Shown here: positions 3,258-61,097 of the stretch, piece by piece | Numbering within the stretch: position 1 is the stretch's first letter | Layout of the letters: each line of letters opens with the position of its first letter | Made by a program: the position numbers and the translations under genes | NCBI GenBank assembly: GCA_964036295.1 | Contig: OZ038465.1 | Location: 3,543,115 to 3,607,114, forward strand | Direction of reading: 5' to 3' | Source: Plumapathes pennacea | Lineage: Eukaryota > Cnidaria > Anthozoa > Antipatharia > Myriopathidae | DNA length: 64,000 bases | Notes under the pieces: generated by a model | What the model was told of the DNA's origin: nothing | Databases searched by the model: none | Seen by the model: only the letters and a program-made list of their open reading frames with translations

Positions 3258-5211
3258 AAATCTGACGCCGCGAGCTCACTGGGAACTCTAGTCTTGTTTG
3301 ACACGGAGTCCTGGCTACCAAACCTGAGTGCTCCAGGGGACACGAGTTGAATATTTGCTTGTTCTGTGGATTTCGACCATTGTAAACTCGGACTTTGCTT
3401 CCCCTTTGTTTTGATGTAGTACTATGCAAATACTAAATTTGCACGTTTTTCATTGGATATACAGTATGTTTGATTTCGTCTCGGCATCTGACATTCAACC
3501 AGGACAATGACTAACCACAAGATTCATTGTGGTTTTCGGTGCAAGAGAAACCGCATATTTTCCGTTGTTTGTATTTTGGTGCCCACGCATCACATTAGCA
3601 GCATAATAATGTAGTTTACAAAAGCTTAGGAATTTCCGCCTTTAATTCTGATGGAACTTCGACTAAACAAACGCTTCGTCATTCGACTTACTCTTCATTC
3701 TGTTTGCAGAATATTGAAATATGTCAACGAGGAATAATAGAAAAAAAGTCGACAATAAAGTGTAACAAACATGTAGGTAGCACTTTACTACAAAGGCAGG
3801 TAACAGTTTACATACCAAGGCAGGCTACCTTTCAGCACTTTGAGGCCCTAATTTGACTGACCACGGGTATGAATAGATACATTAGATAGAAATAGAAAAA
3901 TAGATGGACCGACGAACAGGTGCTAGTCAGCCAGATAAATTCACAAATAAACTGCTACACAAGATCAGACAGAATATACTATGCTAATCAGCGGCACCTT
4001 GACTCGCAAGGAATAATACTGCAATAAAATATGTTGTTACAGAGTTACTATGGACTCCTTTAATATGTTTCAATCCAAGGATATGGCTAGCATAACTTAT
4101 CGTCTTCAATGATTTCAAAACAGACAGAAGTCTTCATGCAACCGCAAAACATTTCGGCAATTACATTTTAGAAACGGTGAAATTTGTCTTGGCGACTGCT
4201 CGATTTTCACCGAATGACTTTGCTTTTCCTTCCTGATAATGTATCTCATTTTTAAGGCGTAATTTGTACTTTGTTGTAATTTGTACTTTTCACGTCTTGC
4301 TGAAGTGAACGCGCTCAAATATCGGACCCTGCTGAGAGTTTTGGCACTTTCAATGTTAGATACAGCAGAAGGGCGAAAGAGTGAAGCTTGTCATGAGGTA
4401 CGACGAGCATCCCCGTCCTTTTTATATTGGAGTCCCACCTCCCTCCCCCCCCCCCCCCCCCCCCCTCCCCTCCCAGGGAGAAATGGTTCTCTTCACATTT
4501 ATTCCTACATTTGCAGCAAAATGATACCCCGCTGCGACCGACTATCGACCCAACCTCGTTCCCAGGTTCTTGAGATGAAAGAGCCTGGGAACGAGGTTGC
4601 GATCGACCGAGTGAGCATGTATTCATGGCACTTAAAAATTCACCACAATCAACTTGTGATAATAACGACAGTAACCCTTTGAAAGCCACAAACTTCTTAC
4701 CTTTGCTCAGATTCAGAATATGAAGTCCCAGCCGTGAAGTGATGTTGGCGCTGTACACTCGTGGCCAAAAACCAAATAGTTTGCTATACTATCCTCTGTG
4801 TTTCAGGGAACTCTCCAAACAATTTGCCCTCCAAACGTCCCTGTGTAGGTAGATAAAGCGTTATTTTATTAATAACTGCGGTTTGTGGCGTCGCGTCGGG
4901 GAATTTTCATTCCGCCGCGGTTATTAGCATACCAGTTTATATTGCTAGAAAATTCCAGAATTCGATGAAAGCGACTATCGCCGTACTGGACCACTGGCCA
5001 GCTGAAGTTTCCTGGACTCCGTAACACACGGAATTGCGGTCAACTCACACAAACCTTACCTAATCTGTAGCTCTTTGATGTGATCTGGGTAAAGATTTGA
5101 AACGTGCCTCACACCCCCGATGCTATTAATAAATGACGTATTATGTGGTCCCCCGGATTGTCACTCATAGAGGTAAAATATTCACATCGTGTGCAAGGAC
5201 TCACTGTGCCT
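3258..5211. other. No gene seen; simple repeats only
   Basis: This is AT-rich non-coding DNA. It contains a poly-C run at about 4445-4465 and a short perfect hairpin at 4551-4600. Small ORFs overlapping the C run are low-complexity artefacts. Confidence 0.5.
4551..4600. repeat. Short perfect hairpin, arms CAACCTCGTTCCCAGG
   Basis: CAACCTCGTTCCCAGG at 4551-4566 is matched by its exact reverse complement at about 4584-4599, with an 18-nt loop. Imperfect pairing continues outward (GACCGA / TCGACC). This looks like a small MITE or a structured insertion; no function can be read from it. Confidence 0.7.
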
Positions 5212-5220
5212 CTTGATCAC

Positions 5221-7181
5221 GGCTATGTTTAAAACCAGGAACCTGGAACCGGGAACCCGGGAACCGGGAACCGGGAACCGGAAACGGGGAACCGGGAACC
5301 CGGAACCGGGAACCGGGAACCTGGGAACCGGGAACCGGGAATCACGAAGCCAGTGACCGCTCATTACGCCTGTCTTTCGTTTCATCATCGCATGGTGCAC
5401 AATGTCGGAGCAAACTGAAGGGTAAGCTGAGAAATATTCATCCTTTTGAGTCGTCCACAGTATACTTTTACTCACTGAGATATTTTTAATCCTTAGAGAC
5501 AATGAAGTAGATCACGAAAGGGGGACGACATCTTCAAGGTGAGGAGATCAGCTTTTTATGTATGATTCAAACTCCGTGCGCGAGAAACAAAGCAGTCTAT
5601 AATTTTATTATTTGCTAAACAAGCGTGCTTCTTGGACCTTTAGATGCAACTTTTTTCTCTATCGGAGCCCAACTTTGAAGTCAATAGGCTACAGAAAGAC
5701 GGATTAACTACATTACACTTTTGGAAAGAAAAATCGCTACGCGGTTCTCAGATTTTCCATATTACACAACATACGTAACTTTTATGGAAAATGAGGAGTT
5801 TTATGTAATTCTTATGGAAAGTGCGGAGTGTTGAAAAATCTCTTCATCATTTATCTCTCATCTTAAACCTCATCATCACTTATCCTTTTAAAAACAGCTT
5901 CGCTTTGTTGCGGACTTTGTTTAAGTCTTAGATTCTTGGATTAATTGGGTAACTGCCGGTGTCTCAAACTGAAACGTCCCTCATATTTCTGTCCGGCCGG
6001 ACATTCCAGTCTTAAGGCCTAAGTTTTTTCGCTGGTCTAACATGTAAGGATACTCATAACGATCCCATAACCTCTTATGATCACTGGAGAAACGGTAACT
6101 CCCTCTAAGTCAGACTATTCGCAGTAGTTCACGTATGAGACAGCTATTACACAACAGGCGCCTGCCTGTCGGCTATTATCTGATCCAGATGTTTGGTGAG
6201 TCATGTTTCACCAGTACCTGAGTTTGAAGTACTAATCTTCCATTCCGAACTTAAACACACAGAATAGTTAACTACCGTGTTCATGATCAAACGAACTACT
6301 GTGCCGGATTTGTAAGCGGGCTCCCGCCCCCATGTTAGTATAAGTAGCTAATTAGATCAATCTGTTCGTGTTTTCACTGATAGCTGCGACTCAGAGTTTT
6401 GCTTCATTTCATTTCTCTTCTTTTGTCGGGAAAACAAAAATTAAAGGATCTCTTTTCAACCATCGACATGTTACCCTCAACTTTCGACATAGACCCTCGA
6501 CCAAAAGGTAAACTCTCATTACATGCTAAATGGTTTGTTGATAAGATTTCGAGTTAAAAGCTTTGACTGTCAATTGAAAGAATTACATAAATTGAAAGAG
6601 TTACATAAGACTCCTCATTTTCCATAAAAGTTACGTATGTTGTGTGATATGGAAAATCTGAGAACCGCGTAGCGATTTTTCTTTCCAAAAGTGTAATGTA
6701 GTTAATCCGTCTTTCTGTAGCCTATTGACTTCAAAGTTGGGCTCCGATAGAGAAAAAAGTTGCATCTAAAGGTCCAAGAAGCACGCTTGTTTAGCAAATA
6801 ATATAATTATAGGCTGCTTTGTTTCTCGCGCACGGAGTTTGAATCATACATAAAAAGCTGATCTCCTCACCTTGAAGATGTCGTCCCCCTTTCGTGATCC
6901 ACTTTATTGTCTCTAAGGATTAAAAATATCTTCAGTGAGTAAAAGTATACTGTGGACGACTCAAAAGGATGAATATTTCTCAGCTTACCCTTCAGTTTGC
7001 TCCGACATCGTGCACCATGCGATGATGAAACGAAAGACAGGCGTAATGAGCGATCACTGGCTTCCCGGTTCCCGGTTCCCGGTTCCGGGTTCCCGGTTCC
7101 CCGTTCCCGGTTCCCCATTCCCGGTTCCCGGTTCCCGGTTCCCGGTTCCCGGGTTCCCGGTTCCAGGTTTTAAACATAGCC
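5221..7181. mobile_element. Fold-back (Mutator-like?) element with ~590-bp inverted repeats and minisatellite ends
   Basis: Two long arms, about 5221-5815 and 6595-7181, are reverse complements of each other around a ~780-bp loop. The ends are GGCTATGTTTAAAACC and its complement. They are flanked by an exact 9-bp direct repeat CTTGATCAC (5212-5220 and 7182-7190), the expected target-site duplication. Just inside each end lies a tandem minisatellite of GGAACCG-type units (5235-5341 and 7064-7167). Long inverted repeats plus a 9-bp duplication suggest a Mutator-like or fold-back element; that class is inferred. No transposase is visible, so it is non-autonomous. ORFs over the minisatellites are artefacts. 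Confidence 0.85.
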
Positions 7182-50286: not shown

Positions 50287-53200
50287 GTTATTATTACTAT
50301 TATTATTATTATTATTATTATTATTCATTATTATTATTATCGCAACTAGCAACTAGCAACTAGCAACTAGCATGAAACCTTTGCTGAGCCTGACCTTATC
50401 AAGAAGATGTAACCTTCTCACATATCTGCAATAGAGAGGTAACACAGTTTTTACACCTGTGATTTAATTAACAAATAAACCAGCTTCAAGCGTGCTCCGT
50501 TCAGAAATAAAGCACGCAGCAAGTGACGAGAGCACGAAAGAAGTGTAGGGAGAAACGCGAGCCGAAGGCGAGCGTTTTTCCCCACTTCTTGAGTGCTCTC
50601 GGCACTTGCTAAGTGCTTTATTTCTGAACGGAGCACGCTTGAAGCTGGTTTATTTGTTTTATAACATAGAACTTAAACTTTCACAATAAAACTGTCTTTA
50701 TTCATCAAAAATGTTGGAATGCTAACAGCGATGAAAAAATAGATTCTCCTAAACGGCTCGGCGGTCCGAATTGCCAAGTCAGTACAGTTTCGCTTCAATT
50801 TTTCAACCAGGCCGTCTGTTCTATAAAATTAGACAACATCTCACAGTAAAGAACTATATTTCCTGTAGAACTTTGGACTACAAGTACATGAAATCATACA
50901 GTCGGCTAGTGCATAAAATGCAAATTTGAAGGGAATCAACAAATGCTCCAACGGCCGACTCGAAAATTGTGTGAATGAAAACTTACCGATTTCTTGACTC
51001 TACTTCGTAGTACAATCATTTGAAGTCCGTCCGAAAATTCTTCAATCATTTTTTTCAGTCACATCGTCGGAAATTCTTTCTCTTGCATCACTACAAACAC
51101 GTCTGTTCGTCTGTCTTCGCCGTTCATGTTCAGTGATTGCTCACGGCTGATCTTCTTCAACTGAATGATTTGCTCTCTCCTTCCTTGTTGAAGCATTAAA
51201 CTTCATTCAAACAACCACTGATGTAATTGTGACTCCCAAATTTGCTGTACTTAGGGACAGTGCTTAAACCGAGTTGCTTTCCACGACGCAAGAAACTTGC
51301 CGTTCTTCGACATAGATTTTCCCTCTCCGAACTGTTGAAGTGCTTTTTGATGAGGTCACGTTCTTTACCGATTCACGGTGGACCGTACTAGCCGGTGCTC
51401 TCACTTAAAGCCAAATTTTATCTCGAAGTTGGGCATTGGTGACTCCATTCTCGCATTATTTTCTCTTTTTTGTCAGAGGATGACGTAAGCGTGGTTTATA
51501 ACTTATAAACCACGGGTAAGTGTGGTTTATACTCTGGCAAACCACGGTTTTCGACCAATCAGCACGCGGCTTGTATCGTGACTATGTTATAATACATAAT
51601 GTACACTCAAGGATAACAGTTGCCCCACCCCACTTTTAGGCAGAAGATGCATCGTGGAAGGAAATCTTGAATCATAAATGGCTTCTAGCTACCATGCCAT
51701 TGTTGAATTACTGTACAATACAAAGTATAGATTTCTAAAGTGAAACTTACGTTCTTTCAGTTGTTAATATCTCAAGAGCAATGTTGTAGAGTTTCTTGCT
51801 GATGGGATCAGGAAACACCTGCAAAAATATATATTTAATAATAATCTTAAAAGCCGTTTTCAAGAGGTTTGAACACTGAACATATTAATGGTACATGCAT
51901 TACTACAAAAGGCCTAGACCTACCATAGTCATTTGATCAGTAGATGGTGGATATTCATGGTTAGGCTGTGGTGATTCTGTACTTTCATCTTCATCAGCAC
52001 TGCTATCAAAATCACTGTCCCAGTCAGAGTCATAGTCAGATAAGCTGTCACCAACAGCCCATTCATTGTCCCCACTCAAATCTGTGGAAATCCTTTCCTG
52101 GCTCTGTTTCTCATCTATTGTTGACTGAACTTGTAATGATGAAGTGTCTGAAGTTACACTCATGGTAACTGGAGGTGGATCTGACTCAACCCTCTTTCGT
52201 ATTGGAAGAGGGGGTAATGGTTTTTGAGGCTTTTTAGGAATACCATCAAGTTGACTTTTCTCAAATGAAGCTGAAGGTTTTGGTAATGTCTTTAAAGGCT
52301 CCACAGAAACTCTACTTTGTGACTCCACAACTTCCTCCTCATTTCTAGAAATCTGTGGGCTCTTTTCTTTTGCTCTATTTTCTTTGTGCAAAGGGTTAAA
52401 GAACTCTCCAACTATCTTTGGGCTAGTTGCTGTTTCCAAAGATGCCACAGCCTCAAACTGACTTGCCAAATCTCTGACACTTTCCCTTTTGTTTTGTTCA
52501 AAAGGGTCCAATAATGTTGCCCGGTTGGCTGAGTCACAGCTTGTTTTTTGTTCACTCACAATTTTCCCACCATTCTTCTTTTGGAATAGGCCCTTTTTGT
52601 CATAAATTACCAGGTTTCCTGGAATGACTGGGTCTGACATAGAGCGGGGCCCTTTTTTACCAGCTAAAGCCTCATTGTGCAGACAGCTGTATGAGACAGG
52701 GCAGCCCACTGGGCTCCTTGGGCGGCTGTTCTCCAGCTTGTTCTTGACAGAGCGAGCCCTAATTTTCGCAATGCTCTTAGCCCTTTCTTTCCCCTTCTTC
52801 TCTGCCATGAACCATGGAAACTGTAAATGAAAAATGGTACACAAAATAAGAGTTAATGCCCACTATTCGTACATTTCTTTTTATCAGAGTGAACTGTTTA
52901 CATGAGAAGGAGTCTTTGTAGTGAACTTAATTAAGGAAAATCTGTGGAGTAGAAATTGCGTGATCGATATTACCTTAAGGAGAATAAACCACAAGTTGTA
53001 CCTGGGGTAAGGGGGTAACATTTGCTCCACCTCAGTGTTCACTGTGATCTTAAAGGAACGTATGAATAATATTGGTGCATCCAGGGTCTGGTTTTTGGGA
53101 CCACTTTCCTCCATATATACAGAGTCGAGTCTGCTATTTTTTCCCTGCATAGGCCAACTATTTTACTTAATTCCTATTCATTAATGCCTCAAAGTAAAAC

Positions 53201-54728: not shown

Positions 54729-54881
54729 TTATAACATAGTCACGATACAAGCCGCGCGTTGATTGGTCGAAAACCGTGGTTTGCCAGAGTATAAACCACA
54801 CTTACCCGTGGTTTATAAGTTATAAACCACGCTTACGTCATCCTCTGGGAAAAAAGAGAAAATAATGCGAGAATGCAGTAG

Positions 54882-55235
54882 TATGGTGGCCCATTGTTAT
54901 CATAGTAAAATTATATACAAACTCATTAAAATAGATTTAAATACCTTTAAAAAAATAAGTAAATTAAAAAAAAGCCAAAAAAAAAACAAATTAATTTGAT
55001 AAAGAAATAAAAATAAAAGTAAAGTAATTTAAATTAAAAGTTAAAATTAAAAGTTAATAAAATGTTTTCAAAAAAAAAAACTGAAGAGTAAAAAATCCGA
55101 ATGAAAAAAATGCAAACAAAAAAAGCTAAGTGAAAAGCGAAAAGGAAATCGATTTTCACATGTCCAACATGGCCCAGCGTTATCATAGCCCGCACTACAT
55201 CAGGACAGCGACGGTCACGATGTCACGTGCCGTAA
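54882..55235. repeat. Left terminal inverted repeat of the IS3EU-like transposon
   Basis: About 350 bp, rich in A-tracts in its middle (54945-55100), ending in a conserved stretch that includes CACATGTCCAACATGGCCCA. It carries the upstream region and probably the promoter and leader of the transposase gene, whose start codon lies about 12 bp inside. Confidence 0.9.
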
Positions 55236-55247
55236 CGCGGGAACAAG

Positions 55248-57836
55248 ATGGCGGCCAGAATAAGAAATCCCGAATGGAAAGACGACGACGACCTGAAGAC
55301 GTATCTGCAGCAGTACGTCTTGAAGAATCTGAAGCGTGAAGAAATTTTGGATTTTGTTCAACGAGATTTTTCGCAGTACGCGTGGAGCTTGCCTACACTA
55401 AGCAGAAGACTCGCCCACTTTAACATCAAGTATATAGACTATGGTGTTGACATAGAAGAGGTCAAGGCAGCAGTTAGACTGGAAAATGACGGGCCAGGGA
55501 GGCTTCTTGGATATCGGGGTATGCAAAGAAAAATACGTGAGCACCACCAGCTACCTGTTCCTCGAGGCTTGGTGTATGACGTTATGACAGACGTGGACCC
55601 CGAGGGTTTAGAATGCAGACGCAATGTTGGTGCACCAAAGAAAAGAAAAAGAGGCCCGACTGGCACATTCACCTCTTTGGTAAGTAGACAAGGGATCTTT
55701 GATATTAAAGGTCCAATTTCTTGAGTTGTCAGTCAGATATTTTTATTGCTTGAAAATGAAATTATCAAATGAAAATCATCATCATCATCACCTAAAACCC
55801 ATGTGTTTATGTTTAATATTCAATACTCCTTCTTGCTCCTATAATCTTCCAGGGACCAAATCACACATTTTCTGGAGATGGTCATGACAAACTTATGGCC
55901 TTCATTAGAGACACCTTTCCCCTCGCTGTCTATGGAATGATGGATGTATTCAGTGGACGTCTGCTTTATTTGAAACTGTGGACATCGAATTCAAATCCTA
56001 AGCTAATTGGGAAGTGGTACTTGGAGTATCTATATGAGTCCAAAGGTGGGTACCAGTATACCTTTACTACCAAATTTATGTAATAATACAGTTGAACCCC
56101 AATATATCAAAGTGCCAAGGGACTAGTAAAATGTTTGTTGTGACAGTGGTTCAATATAAACGAATCCCTGTTTTATTTCTTTTTGGGTAAAAAGAACATC
56201 AAAGCATACCCTGCCTTTCATGAGGGATAGTACATATATTTGCAGGATGCCAAACATGGACTGCTTCCTCGTTTGGCGTTCAGCATTACGAGGATAGAGT
56301 AGGGACAGTGACCCTGCGATAGACTAGCAACCCATCCAGGAGGGGAGTAGAAAGACATGTACTCTCGGCTGCTTCATGCTACACATCCGCTTACAGTATC
56401 TACAGTGTACTGCAGTCTCTTTTGTATTCTGCACTAAAGTGCAACCCATGTTGATCCAATTACAGTCATCAGTCACCGTTTGAGGTTGGATAAGGGAACT
56501 GAAACTGGAGACATGGCAACAATACATTCATTTTTAAGAAGTGGTCATGGCGACATACCTGATCCTGCAGATACTGTTCAATATGGTCCCTCAACAAGTA
56601 ATAAGGTATCAAGTAATATTTTTAAGGTTGAACATCATTTTTCTAAGGGTGGTTTTATTTTTCTTTCAGAATTACAGTATTCACAGCATGTACATTGTAA
56701 AGTACAACTAGCTTCCAAAAACCTTTCAATGTGTCAACACCAAATTTCCAGGGGGTGCCGTGGGGTATCAGGAATATTTTTATTTTGTATAGGACTTTCA
56801 CATAATAATGACCACTCCATATGCCTCCTGTAGAAAATTAACCTTCTAATGATCATGTACTGTACATGTATTCACCTATATTTCTGTATTTTGCAGATTG
56901 AGAGATGGTGGCGTGAGCTCCACAATCGTCTTGAGAAGTACTTCAAACGACAATTGAACATGTTGCTAGATCAAGGGCATTATGATCCAAATGATGAGAC
57001 TGACAGGTAATGTTTACACCAGTCCGTGTACTGTAAATTCACTAGTGGAAGAGGCACAGAAACCAAGAAATGCAACACACACTCCTCTTTGGGTAGGAAT
57101 CAATCCATTCTTGTGAAAGTCTATCGTGGATAATATTTTAGTCACTCAACCCATCCCTCTTCATAAACTGGTCCCCAATTGAAACTTTACTTCTGGTTTT
57201 CTCACCTTGGTCTAGAAACCTTTTGGCCTTTGTGTTCATTCCTGTGATCCAAGCAGAGATGGACATTTTCAAAGAAACTGTGTGGAACTCCCATCGGATC
57301 AGGAAGCAAAAGGATGCTCAGTTACCAAAGGGCATTCCTAATCATTTATTTAACTTTCCTGAAAGATATGGTGCTGAAGATTGTGGTATGTACCTGAATA
57401 ACAGGTGAATCCAGTAAATCTACAACTTGAAACTGTTGTCTCTCCACAAGCACATATCAACACATCAAAGCACTTAATCTATCAGTGTCTAACCTTCTTG
57501 TGGAATGATAATAGGATACATTTTATAAAATGGGACCAACAGCTGCACCATCATCTATCTATTGTTTCTCAGGAAAAACCAGTAGCACAATGTATGTAAT
57601 GCTATATTGAAATGTGTGTACCATCATTATTCAATCATTTAGGCTGGCCAGTTTTGCAAGAGGCTCTGGATGAAGTGGCAGAATTGTCAGGTGTAATGAC
57701 TGTTGGCGTTGACTACCTGCCATCTGCTGTACGGACAGAATGCGAACGCATAATACCAGAGGTCACCAGTGTCAAGCCAGGGGATGCAGCAGACACTTAT
57801 CTATTCCTGAAGACACATTATATATCACCACAATAA
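55248..57836 (+). CDS. HTH plus DDE integrase-core transposase (complete, six exons)
   Basis: Transposase of 412 aa, expected to cut and join the element's ends in the nucleus. Exons: 55248-55679, 55853-56045, 56466-56605, 56897-57006, 57216-57385, 57643-57836; phases close and every intron is GT..AG. The start MAARIRNPEW is chosen because upstream sequence lies in the inverted repeat. Residues 1-140 form a helical DNA-binding part, with SLPTLSRRLAHFNI as a likely HTH and a conserved VDPEGLECR segment. A basic KKRKRG stretch is a possible nuclear signal. The catalytic core starts near 145: GDGHDKL (Asp153), RLDKGTE (Asp217) and IERWW (Glu257) are the likely D, D, E. This layout matches the eukaryotic integrase-core family related to IS3 and retroviral integrases. 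No frameshift or stop is present, so it may be functional. Confidence 0.9.
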
Positions 57837-57952
57837 GGTGCATTCAAACATTTTATTGTAATACTTTTGGCTTATGTTCTGAAACATAAATTATTTTGGT
57901 TGAATATTCTACAAAATGGAACAATAACGCCATTAATAATTATTATTGTTTT

Positions 57953-58247
57953 GTAACAGTAACAAAATTATGAAGATGTTAGATATTAAAACTGGCCATA
58001 CGCCCATTGCAAAGGGACAACATCTGAAACATAATCTTTCTTACTGCATTAAAATTTATCTTCTAAAATCAAATTTACAAATTAGATGTGGCCAGTAATA
58101 AGTTCTGCATAGTACATGCTGTAACACCAGGCATTGCGACTGGTACATGTATTCTTGTCTTAATGTAACAGTAACAAAATTATGAAGATATGCTAGATAT
58201 TTAAAGAAATGGACATACACCCATTTCACAACATTACCATCTGAAAC
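57953..58247. repeat. Two diverged copies of a ~80-bp segment between the transposon genes
   Basis: 57953-58030 and 58165-58247 both run from GTAACAGTAACAAAATTATG to CATCTGAAAC. They fall between the convergent stop codons, so they probably form part of the 3' UTRs or polyadenylation region of both genes. Confidence 0.8.
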
Positions 58248-58366
58248 GTACAGTAGATGTACAGTAATACATTGTAAGTTTTGCATACAATCCCATGTAG
58301 TACAGTAACTGGAAGGTTATGACAACATGCAACCACCTTCATTAGCTTGGGACTGGCAGCATAACT

Positions 58367-59906
58367 CTAAAATGATTCTAATCCCATCATTGTGCAGTAA
58401 CTGTTACATGCATGTTCCTGCAGGAAATTGTTAATCCCAGTCTTGGAGAGGTTCCCACAGCAGAAATACACTTCCTGTGCATTCATGTCAATAAGCTCAT
58501 CTGTAGCAATTTCTGGGTCATACAGATGATATCCAGATCCTTGGATGTCTGTCAGCATCATCTTCTTGTCTGTCATACAGTATGTGTAGTGCACCAAGCA
58601 TTGTGCCTTGTCAAACAACTGTTGACATTCTGTGGTGCATCCAGCTGGAGGTGAAATGCACAGTCCATTGTTGTTCACATACTTTGTGAAGGTGCCTGGG
58701 ACGAATGTTTCCACTGTGCATGGTTGGTCATTGTACTCTGTGTAGTACACATAGTTGTAGTGAAAACACTCCTCAAATTCAGCAGGCACCTTTGAGGCAA
58801 AGCTTTTGGTAAGATGCCTTGCCACAGCATGCATTTGTACCTGCTTGCGTGTGTGGTCTTCAATGGATGTGTTGAGGGTCTCCTTTATTGTTTTCATGGG
58901 TTTTTCATTATACATCTTTAGAACCCAAACCTGACTTTGGCCTTCCACATTACCAGTGGTGACAGCCTTAAAAGCATCTCTGAATGCACCAGATGAAAAC
59001 TTTTGAGTGTCAACCAGGAGTTCCAACTTCATACCTTGTTGCCATTCACGGGTTTCAACATCAAACTTTTCCATCTCAAGAACTGCTTTGTTTTTTGGTT
59101 GGGGTTTAATTAGCTTTCCTGCCATAAGAAGTGCATCTATGGACACAGATGCAGGAAACTTTGTTTCAGTAAGGCCAAAATTGTGTTGACTCAATTTTTT
59201 GGCCTGTGGTGGTGGTGGTGCATTACGTCCCCCCGGTAAGCTACCAGTATTAGAGAAAAAATTATCAAAAGAATTGTTGATTTCTCCTTCTTCCTCTTCC
59301 TCTTCCTCTTCCTGCACCCCATCCTGATCTTGCATTAACACAAACCTCACTAGATACACCTGAACAAAGAAATAGCAAAAGATAAAACAATAAGAAAGAA
59401 ATAGAAATAAAAAAGTAATAATTTGGATAAGATTCAGATAGATCAATACATTTACATAATAGTATATGTATATGGTTTCGGGGGGGGGGGCAATAATTAA
59501 TATGAGGACCGCTTTGAAGTGAGTGAGTGAAATATGTAAAGCTGTCATTCAGGATGTAACATACCTTGTCCTTTCGGTGGGGGATTTGAGCAATGTTGGT
59601 GCAAGATGGCCCCTTGTTTGAAACCAGTATGTCGCATGCGCTTGCCGGAAGACTGAAATGTCGAGCGCACGCTTTTCTCAAGTTAGCTAAGTTAAGCTCC
59701 TCGTACTCGAAGGGAACAAACTCCCGCGGTTGAATTGGACGGTAGGTCTGCTTGTTGTCCGGCTCGGACGACAGCTTTTGCACTACAACTTCATGGGGCG
59801 CAGATCCTTTCTTGTTTTTTTGGCGACCTATTGCATCGGCCCTGGTCCTTTTCCCTCTCATTTTTGCTTGTAAATCATCCCAAACTCCTTGTCGTTTAGG
59901 CGGCAT
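58367..59906 (-). CDS. Alpha-kinase (eEF2K/MHCK/TRPM-type) carried as transposon cargo
   Basis: Atypical protein kinase of 444 aa in two exons, 59906-59565 and 59359-58367 (GT..AG, phase 0). The start MPPKRQGVWDD is the first Met inside the inverted repeat. Residues 1-125 are basic and then hold a conserved-looking but unrecognised segment (REFVPFEYEEL). An acidic run (EEEEEEEEGE) and a proline stretch follow. The alpha-kinase domain (~210-440) is complete: FSSGAFRDAFKA (235-246), the ATP-site Lys in WVLKMY (~262), FVPGTFTKYVNN, then MLTDIQGSGYHLYDPEIAT with the Asp, Gln and Asp expected in the active site (~385-395), and GNLSKTGINNFLQEHACNSYC, the C-terminal zinc-site signature with His and Cys residues. 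Nothing essential is missing. Its neighbour on the opposite strand is the transposase. Substrates are unknown; action on the transposase or a host translation factor is speculation. Confidence 0.92.
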
Positions 59907-59945
59907 TGCTGTTTGATAAACCACGTGCGATGAGGCTTCCAGGCT

Positions 59946-60299
59946 ACGGTACGTGACGTCAGTGACCGTCGCTGTCCTGATGTAGTGCGGGCTGTGATAA
60001 CGCTGGGCCATGTTGGACATGTGAAAATCGATTTCGTTTTCGTTTTTCACTTAGCTTTTTTTTGGTTGCATTTTTTTCATTCGGATTTTTTACTCCAGTT
60101 TTTTTTTTTTGAAAACATTTTATTTATTTTTAATTTTAACTTTTAATTTAAATTACTTTATTTTTATTTTTATTTCTTTATCAAATTAATTTGTTTTTTT
60201 TTTTGGCTTTTTTTTAATTTACTTATTTTTTTAAAGGTATTTAAATCTATTTTAATGAGTTTGTATATAATTTTACTATGATAACAATGGGCCACCATA
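59946..60299. repeat. Right terminal inverted repeat of the IS3EU-like transposon
   Basis: Complement of 54882-55235, with poly-T runs where the left arm has poly-A. The arms diverge at about 59945, just upstream of the alpha-kinase start codon, so this arm supplies the kinase gene's promoter and leader. Confidence 0.9.
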
Positions 60300-61097
60300 C
60301 AGTAGTCACCAATGTCCAACTTCGAGATAAAGTTTGGCTTTAAGTGAAGGCACCGGCTAGTACGGTTCACCGTGAATCGGTAAAGAACGTGACCTCATCA
60401 AAAAGCACTTCAACAGTTTGGAGAGGGAAAATCTATGTCGAAGAACGGCAAGTTTCTTGTCAGCGTCGTGGAAAGCGACTCGGTTTAAGCACTGTCCCTA
60501 AGTACAGCATATTTGAGAGTCACAATTACATCAGTGGGTTCTTTGAATGAAGTTGAATGCTTCAACAAGGAAGGAGAGAGCAAATCATTCAGTTGAAGAA
60601 GATCAGCCGTGAGCAATCACTGAACATGAACGGCGAAGACAGACGAACAGACGTGTTTGTAGTGATGCAAGAGAAAGAATTTCCGACGATGTGACTGAAA
60701 AAAATGATTGAAGAATTTTCGGACGGACTTCAATTGATTGTACTACGAGGTAGAGTCAAGAAATCGGTAAGTTTTCATTCACAAAATTTTCGAGTCGGCC
60801 GTTGGAGCATTTGTTGATTCCCTTCAAATTTGCATTTTATGCACTAGCCGCCTGTATGATTTCATGTACTTGTAGTCCAAAGTTCTACAGGAAATATAGT
60901 TCTTTACTGTGAGATGTTGTCTAATTTTATAGAACAGACGGCCTGGTTGAAAAATTGATGCGAAACTGTACTGACTTGGCAATTCGGACCGCCGAGCCGT
61001 TTAGGAGAATCTATTTTTTCATCGCTGTTAGCATTTCAACATTTTTGATGAATGAAGACAGTTTTATTGTGAAAGTTTTGAAGTTCTATGTTATAAA

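Follow-up and report, generated by a model that had tools for sequence, protein, structure and literature searches.

An IS3EU-like DNA transposon of Plumapathes pennacea with an alpha-kinase gene facing its transposase gene

The window analysed here is a stretch of 64,000 nucleotides of the anthozoan Plumapathes pennacea (assembly GCA_964036295.1, contig OZ038465.1, positions 3,543,115 to 3,607,114). Positions 54882-60299 of the window are a complete DNA transposon of 5,418 bp, in which a transposase gene and an alpha-kinase gene face each other. The same two genes are paired in nine families of elements in this genome, and comparison of their sequences indicates that the kinase is very probably an integral, selected second gene of the element. 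The locus is apparently an autonomous and recently active cut-and-paste transposon with features of the IS3EU superfamily. The overall explanation that we favor, and consider likely, is a two-gene IS3EU element with a selected accessory kinase that aids the element.

Recurrence of the transposase-kinase pair

A search of the 290-Mb genome for the alpha-kinase domain PF02816 gave 63 matches, which merge to 55 loci; the 20 best-scoring kinase loci besides the window were extracted. A facing transposase relative is present in 18 of them, including L019, where it is only a fragment, and L009, which is partly inverted internally and has pieces in other orientations too. Within the L009 copy, an inverted repeat of 913 bp and 99.8% identity (L009:4690-6943) was observed together with a second kinase fragment in the opposite orientation. 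The two exceptions are L014, which has a kinase only, and L025, whose ALPK1-like kinase is presumably a host gene. When the window is included, 15 of 21 loci possess both canonical 10-bp ends, and 13 of these 15 are flanked by identical 6-bp sequences, the length of the target-site duplication (TSD) of IS3EU elements; the flanks of L011 and L024 differ. Grouped by identity, the elements with both genes face to face form the families A (the window), B, C, D1, D2, D3, E, F and G. Family G consists of two additional loci, L034 and L035, in which the matches to both genes are intron-free. In L034, both ends and the TSD CAATGT are present but just the later portion of the kinase; L035 has an altered left end. 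L034 is flanked by two open frames of 260 and 346 amino acids, recognised by eye as resembling the halves of a reverse transcriptase, as if the element sat inside an element of the long interspersed (LINE) type.

The pairing was also seen from the side of the transposase. A genome search with the transposase protein gave 117 matches, and those of at least 43% identity were merged to 62 loci; 101 of 372 candidates were scored, which makes the counts lower bounds. A PF02816 match lies within 12 kb of at least 35 of the 62 transposase loci, 34 of which are convergent. When the genome was searched with the kinase protein (106 matches, 66 merged loci), a kinase was found within 12 kb of at least 39 of the 62 loci, in 38 of them in convergent orientation, and a transposase is located within 12 kb of 42 of the 66 kinase loci. 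The chance expectation for such pairing is about 0.5% of loci, and none of 14 loci of other rva_4-type transposases (30-35% identical) has a kinase within 12 kb. The co-occurrence that an earlier note on this DNA, made from the sequence alone, had proposed to look for is thus present in the genome. PF24764 matches were rejected as a denominator for IS3EU elements: introns split the domain, and the window element is not among the matches listed. The same note had envisaged a lineage-specific growth of alpha-kinase families, with which 52 of the 55 genomic alpha-kinase loci agree in being matched by the element kinase or lying within 100 bases of such a match (compared by eye), although a locus may match without being derived from the element. 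The kinase locus C4:12776804-12778639 and the fragment C1:11063064 were given no class. Among host-type alpha-kinases of the genome, the ALPK1-like L025 was recognised, and eEF2K or TRPM genes were not identified.

The window family is young. Three further full-length copies, on C1, C2 and elsewhere on C4, are 100, 99 and 99% identical, and their kinases differ from that of the window by no synonymous and one or two replacement changes; one of the three has a stop in the transposase. Family A further comprises one interrupted and several partial copies, and G000:C1:34183316-34186159 is an internal-deletion derivative that retains positions 1-1200 and 3929-5418 of the element.

Five transposase loci with no kinase nearby were examined, which correspond to six of 23 such entries. 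No kinase pieces were found in these five loci, and each of them falls short of a complete element with two ends. In L030, the transposase match ends after residue ~292 and one end is present, and L032 and L033 are later transposase halves with no ends. L031:1398-3910 is palindromic and 2.5 kb long; this derivative has both ends, the TSD CTGGAG and, of the transposase, the first part only, and its 700-bp arms derive from the transposase end. G000:C5:15523544-15525682 contains kinase pieces with stops between arms that are ~67% like those of the window and no transposase match; it is apparently a non-autonomous kinase-only derivative, and a similar kinase-only locus lies at C5:15174220-15175557.

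Structure of the element and its two genes

The termini of the window element, TATGGTGGCC...GGCCACCATA, are of the TATGG..CCATA type, in agreement with the TA..TA termini of IS3EU elements and the TAYGG..CCRTA ends of their rust families, and the inverted-repeat arms (Table 1) measure about 355 bp, are 96% alike and exceed the >30 bp given for terminal inverted repeats (TIRs) of the rust families. Identity of two random 6-mers, as a measure for chance identity of the flanks, occurred in 10 of 20,000 draws. The end motif TGGCCCA..GTTATCATAG (54887-54905) is present again about 283 bp further inward and is mirrored in the right arm; the inner repeat may serve the transposase as a second binding site. 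The flanking repeat has an inverted paralogue that lacks the element and is continuous across the point where the two flanks join; it differs by 3 bases at the target and at scattered positions elsewhere. The 3-base difference may be either a trace of excision or chance variation. The inverted ends, the flank repeat, the six-exon transposase and the facing two-exon kinase described in the earlier note were recovered base-exactly, and no third gene was seen in the window element.

The transposase is a protein of 412 amino acids encoded by six exons with GT-AG introns in a stop-free frame. It is matched by the Pfam domain PF24764 (rva_4) above the cut-off (E 5.7e-18) and contains a DDD/E core of D153, D217 and E257, with 39 residues between the second D and the E. 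The first D and the E do not vary among 22 chosen relatives, and the second D is nearly invariant.

The kinase comprises 444 amino acids encoded by two exons on the opposite strand, likewise in a stop-free frame. PF02816 is its sole Pfam domain above the cut-off (E 1.7e-32, 113.5 bits vs a cut-off of 21.3). Alignment to TRPM7 revealed that the ATP lysine, the D-x-Q motif, the second aspartate and the zinc-site histidines and cysteines are kept, and the protein is predicted to be catalytically active; the catalytic and zinc-binding roles of these residues we take to be those of TRPM7 and MHCK-A. Across 34 chosen near-full-length kinases, the residues K, D, Q and D, the two H and the first C are invariant and the last C nearly so. 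Residues of the N-terminal domain are likewise invariant in this set, and the same N-terminal domain and domain order are present in all aligned kinases. A structural model of the related protein P0001 has the order strand-strand-helix-strand-strand in this domain; a model of the window kinase from exon 1 only is poor (predicted local distance difference test score, pLDDT, 67.8) and lacks the last strand. The top Foldseek matches are mostly ubiquitin-like, the best with an E-value of only 0.09, and the domain is perhaps of the ubiquitin-like (beta-grasp) fold. The basic N-terminus would fit with entry into the nucleus.

Table 1. Positions of the transposon, its genes and its flanking features in the window
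Feature	Positions	Strand
Near empty site: inverted paralogue of the flanking repeat, element absent	50853..51598	-
Left target-site duplication CAGTAG	54876..54881	.
Left terminal inverted repeat (TATGGTGGCCC...), includes subterminal repeat of the end motif at 55170-55188	54882..55234	+
Transposase exon 1, ATG at 55248	55248..55679	+
Transposase exon 2, first catalytic-motif D153	55853..56045	+
Transposase exon 3, second catalytic-motif D217	56466..56605	+
Transposase exon 4, catalytic-motif E257	56897..57006	+
Transposase exon 5	57216..57385	+
Transposase exon 6 and stop	57643..57836	+
Kinase exon 2, linker and alpha-kinase domain (K262, E331, H371, D385, Q387, D395, H430, C432, C436)	58367..59359	-
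Kinase exon 1, basic N-terminus plus the conserved domain that is perhaps ubiquitin-like	59565..59906	-
Right terminal inverted repeat	59945..60299	-
Right target-site duplication CAGTAG	60300..60305	.

Selection on the kinase and its possible role

In three comparisons between families, synonymous sites of the kinase are saturated (pS, the proportion of synonymous differences, 0.80-0.86), whereas replacement sites are not (pN 0.24-0.34), which argues that the kinase is under selection. Within families B, C and E, the pooled comparisons contain 29 synonymous and 35 replacement differences and yield a pN/pS of 0.32 (Fisher p 1.6e-5), or 0.42 if one family F pair is added; some pooled pairs have a reference copy in common, which makes their independence incomplete. 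The pool omits the family A pairs (zero synonymous change), L022-L024 of family B (counts equal to those of L022-L023), L010-L019 of family C (a partial copy with a kinase ratio of 0.65) and L014-L026 of family F. Ratios of single pairs range from 0.05 to 0.78 and, as comparisons of copy with copy, mix in neutral decay after insertion. The recurrence in nine families, the selection and the absence of a complete kinase-less element among the five loci examined together indicate that the kinase is integral and not a passenger. The claim of the earlier note that the kinase is part of the element therefore stands: four full copies carry it, the pair recurs, and the picture is not one of mostly broken kinase frames with a rate ratio near 1.

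Trees of both proteins were calculated for ten loci from the nine families and five external pairs. They have 5 of 12 bipartitions in common, one of which consists of the two family F loci, and 5,000 label shuffles reached at most four. The deepest shared split places family G with the external pairs, apart from all other families. Co-diversification of the kinase and the transposase is thus partial.

Several observations weigh against a selected kinase inherited together with its transposase. No partner within 12 kb was found for 24 kinase loci (of 66) and 23 transposase loci (of 62), most of which are presumed to be relics, and L029 contains all transposase exons and the left end and no kinase, the right end being absent in the following 3.6 kb. 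The kinase of family F has stops and a pN/pS of ~0.78, as expected of decayed copies; the family B pair L022-L028 has a ratio of 0.58, and the family A pairs yield none. The assignment of the N-terminal fold is weak. Furthermore, the input of the trees consisted of exon pieces joined from tblastn with stops omitted, 7 of 12 bipartitions differ between the trees, and in two conflicts both sides have bootstrap support of at least 95. In the first, the family C kinase groups with E (100/98), while the E transposase groups with D and F to the exclusion of C (100/99); in approximately unbiased (AU) tests, the transposase rejects C+E (p 8e-5) and the kinase rejects D+E+F without C (p 0.037). In the second, X2 and X4, two of the external pairs, form a group in the kinase tree (99/96) but not in that of the transposase (96/94); these pairs were matched only by equal longest-contig size and may be mispaired. 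The conflicting bipartitions indicate that the transposase and the kinase can separate, and exchange of the kinase between related elements would be the simplest reading.

How the kinase serves the element can be proposed only tentatively. It might regulate transposition by phosphorylation. The transposase and the facing alpha-kinase have very probably been carried and selected together through nine families, and relatives of both are found in other animals. The kinase would most likely act in the nucleus, either on the transposase or transposition complex or on a host protein of chromatin or repair, and its phosphorylation of this target would set when or how often the element moves. Nuclear action and a benefit to transposition are what we infer from these data; the transposase complex and nuclear host proteins would both be leading candidate substrates.

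It is also conceivable, if somewhat doubtful, that the kinase serves the element via the host, acting on translation or stress like eEF2 kinase or on chromatin like the cleaved TRPM7 kinase, and leaves the transposase directly unaffected. The alpha-kinase fold is close to those of TRPM7, MHCK-A and eEF2K, cleaved TRPM6/7 kinases are reported in a passage of PMC13143021 to phosphorylate nuclear histones, and the abstract of PMC12730594 interprets a TET/JBP gene of fungal IS3EU elements, located between the same two genes, as a means of escape from silencing. The kinase evolves partly with its own transposase family, though host targets remain compatible with this. The tree conflicts of family C and of X2 and X4 would also be accounted for if different IS3EU families had each acquired an alpha-kinase independently, or had swapped kinases repeatedly; we consider this very unlikely, since all aligned kinases have the N-terminal domain and order in common, the deepest shared split agrees, and the conflicts require no new captures if related elements exchanged kinases. 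That the kinase is a chance capture of a host alpha-kinase, amplified while bringing the element no benefit, is very improbable: some copies have kinase stops and kinase-only and transposase-only copies exist, which also counts against the reading preferred here, but the kinase is conserved through nine families despite saturated synonymous sites, its catalytic and N-terminal residues are invariant in the 34 chosen proteins, 38 of 39 transposase loci with a nearby kinase are convergent, and the host-like ALPK1 relative L025 is distant from the element kinase.

Relatives and known systems

The best 120 of 159 proteins found with the kinase and the best 120 of 259 found with the transposase include, both searches taken together, named anthozoans, Clytia, tunicates and limpets; a search with the family G kinase gave 190 proteins, of which the best 120 were inspected. 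Within the best 120 of each search, the best named relatives of the element genes are anthozoan. Kinase and transposase records with an equal longest-contig size were found at 64,267, 85,488, 3,130,359, 3,786,630 and 12,273,785 bases, the last from Ciona. The long ones are good signs of linkage, and a further pair at 5,435 bases is a weak one for which chance coincidence is conceivable. Searches with two peptide patterns from the kinase alignment gave 16 pattern matches in viral contigs (IMG/VR) and 26 in prokaryote genomes, none of which is a relative. Records of Exaiptasia, Paramuricea and Stylophora that are named TRPM6 are 40-51% identical to the element kinase. The cnidarian 'TRPM6' and tunicate eEF2 kinase records among its relatives are P0001, P0002, P0053, P0081 and P0108 (40-51% identical to the window kinase) and P0258 (43% to the family G kinase), and such public records look misnamed. 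A passage of PMC13143021 states that some cnidarian 'TRPM6' sequences hold a kinase only and are wrongly annotated.

The earlier note had assumed that no IS3EU-type element with an alpha-kinase was described, which does not hold: section 4.1 of PMC12730594 (Kojima 2025) states that in all TET-bearing IS3EU families of fungi the TET/JBP gene lies between an oppositely oriented transposase and alpha-kinase. The pairing is thus already in print for fungi, where alone it was found, and this kind of element is not undescribed. The term 'alpha-kinase' appears just twice in that paper, in passing, and no kinase analysis is given. In the open-licence PMC literature, mostly checked at the level of listings, no paper on animal transposons with an alpha-kinase was found. 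New are the animal elements, the evidence for selection and an explanation for orphan cnidarian 'TRPM6-like' kinases.

In a bolder view, which we put forward with reserve, IS3EU would at its root be a two-gene superfamily of animals and fungi, and the kinase, with its own, perhaps ubiquitin-like, N-terminal domain, a dedicated switch of transposition. If the kinase is such a built-in switch, transposons and not host signalling would be the source of the orphan 'TRPM6-like' kinases of cnidarians and of the swarms of alpha-kinases in rusts. The role of a transposon-encoded protein kinase becomes testable, and the alpha-kinase is seen to belong to the element as a selected gene and not as cargo. 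The class of misnamed genes, such as the kinase-only 'TRPM6' of cnidarians noted in part of PMC13143021, may be reassigned, and repeat masking ahead of gene-family counts would take out such kinase genes. An explanation is also offered for the expansion of alpha-kinases in rusts, a family described in a passage of PMC4469406 as highly expanded there (counts of 79 and 39 in two columns, taken to be those of rusts), and alpha-kinase is among the enriched domains of wheat rusts in a passage of PMC5295586.

Among known systems, the TET-bearing IS3EU elements of rust fungi and Tuber, as described in parts of PMC12730594, resemble the window element in the 6-bp TSD and the opposed transposase and alpha-kinase, and the rust families also in TAYGG..CCRTA ends and TIRs of more than 30 bp. 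They differ in the TET/JBP dioxygenase between the two genes; the likeness to the rust elements is one of published description. Styx of Zymoseptoria (PMC10853768) likewise combines an IS3EU-related DDD/E transposase with extra genes, and its ancestor is drawn in that source as a two-protein IS3EU element. However, its extra genes encode GATA, CCHC and DUF3577 proteins, with no alpha-kinase in the parts of the paper compared. The IS3EU/GingerRoot superfamily (PMC10045372), for which a TSD of usually 6 bp is given, agrees with the window element in TA..TA ends, the 6-bp TSD and the DDD/E core, whereas the word kinase is absent from this account. The host kinases TRPM6/7, eEF2K, MHCK-A and ALPK1 have the alpha-kinase fold, the ATP lysine, the D-x-Q motif and the zinc-site residues in common with the element kinase, but are only 20-25% identical to its modelled relative P0001, and the element kinase possesses an N-terminal domain of its own.

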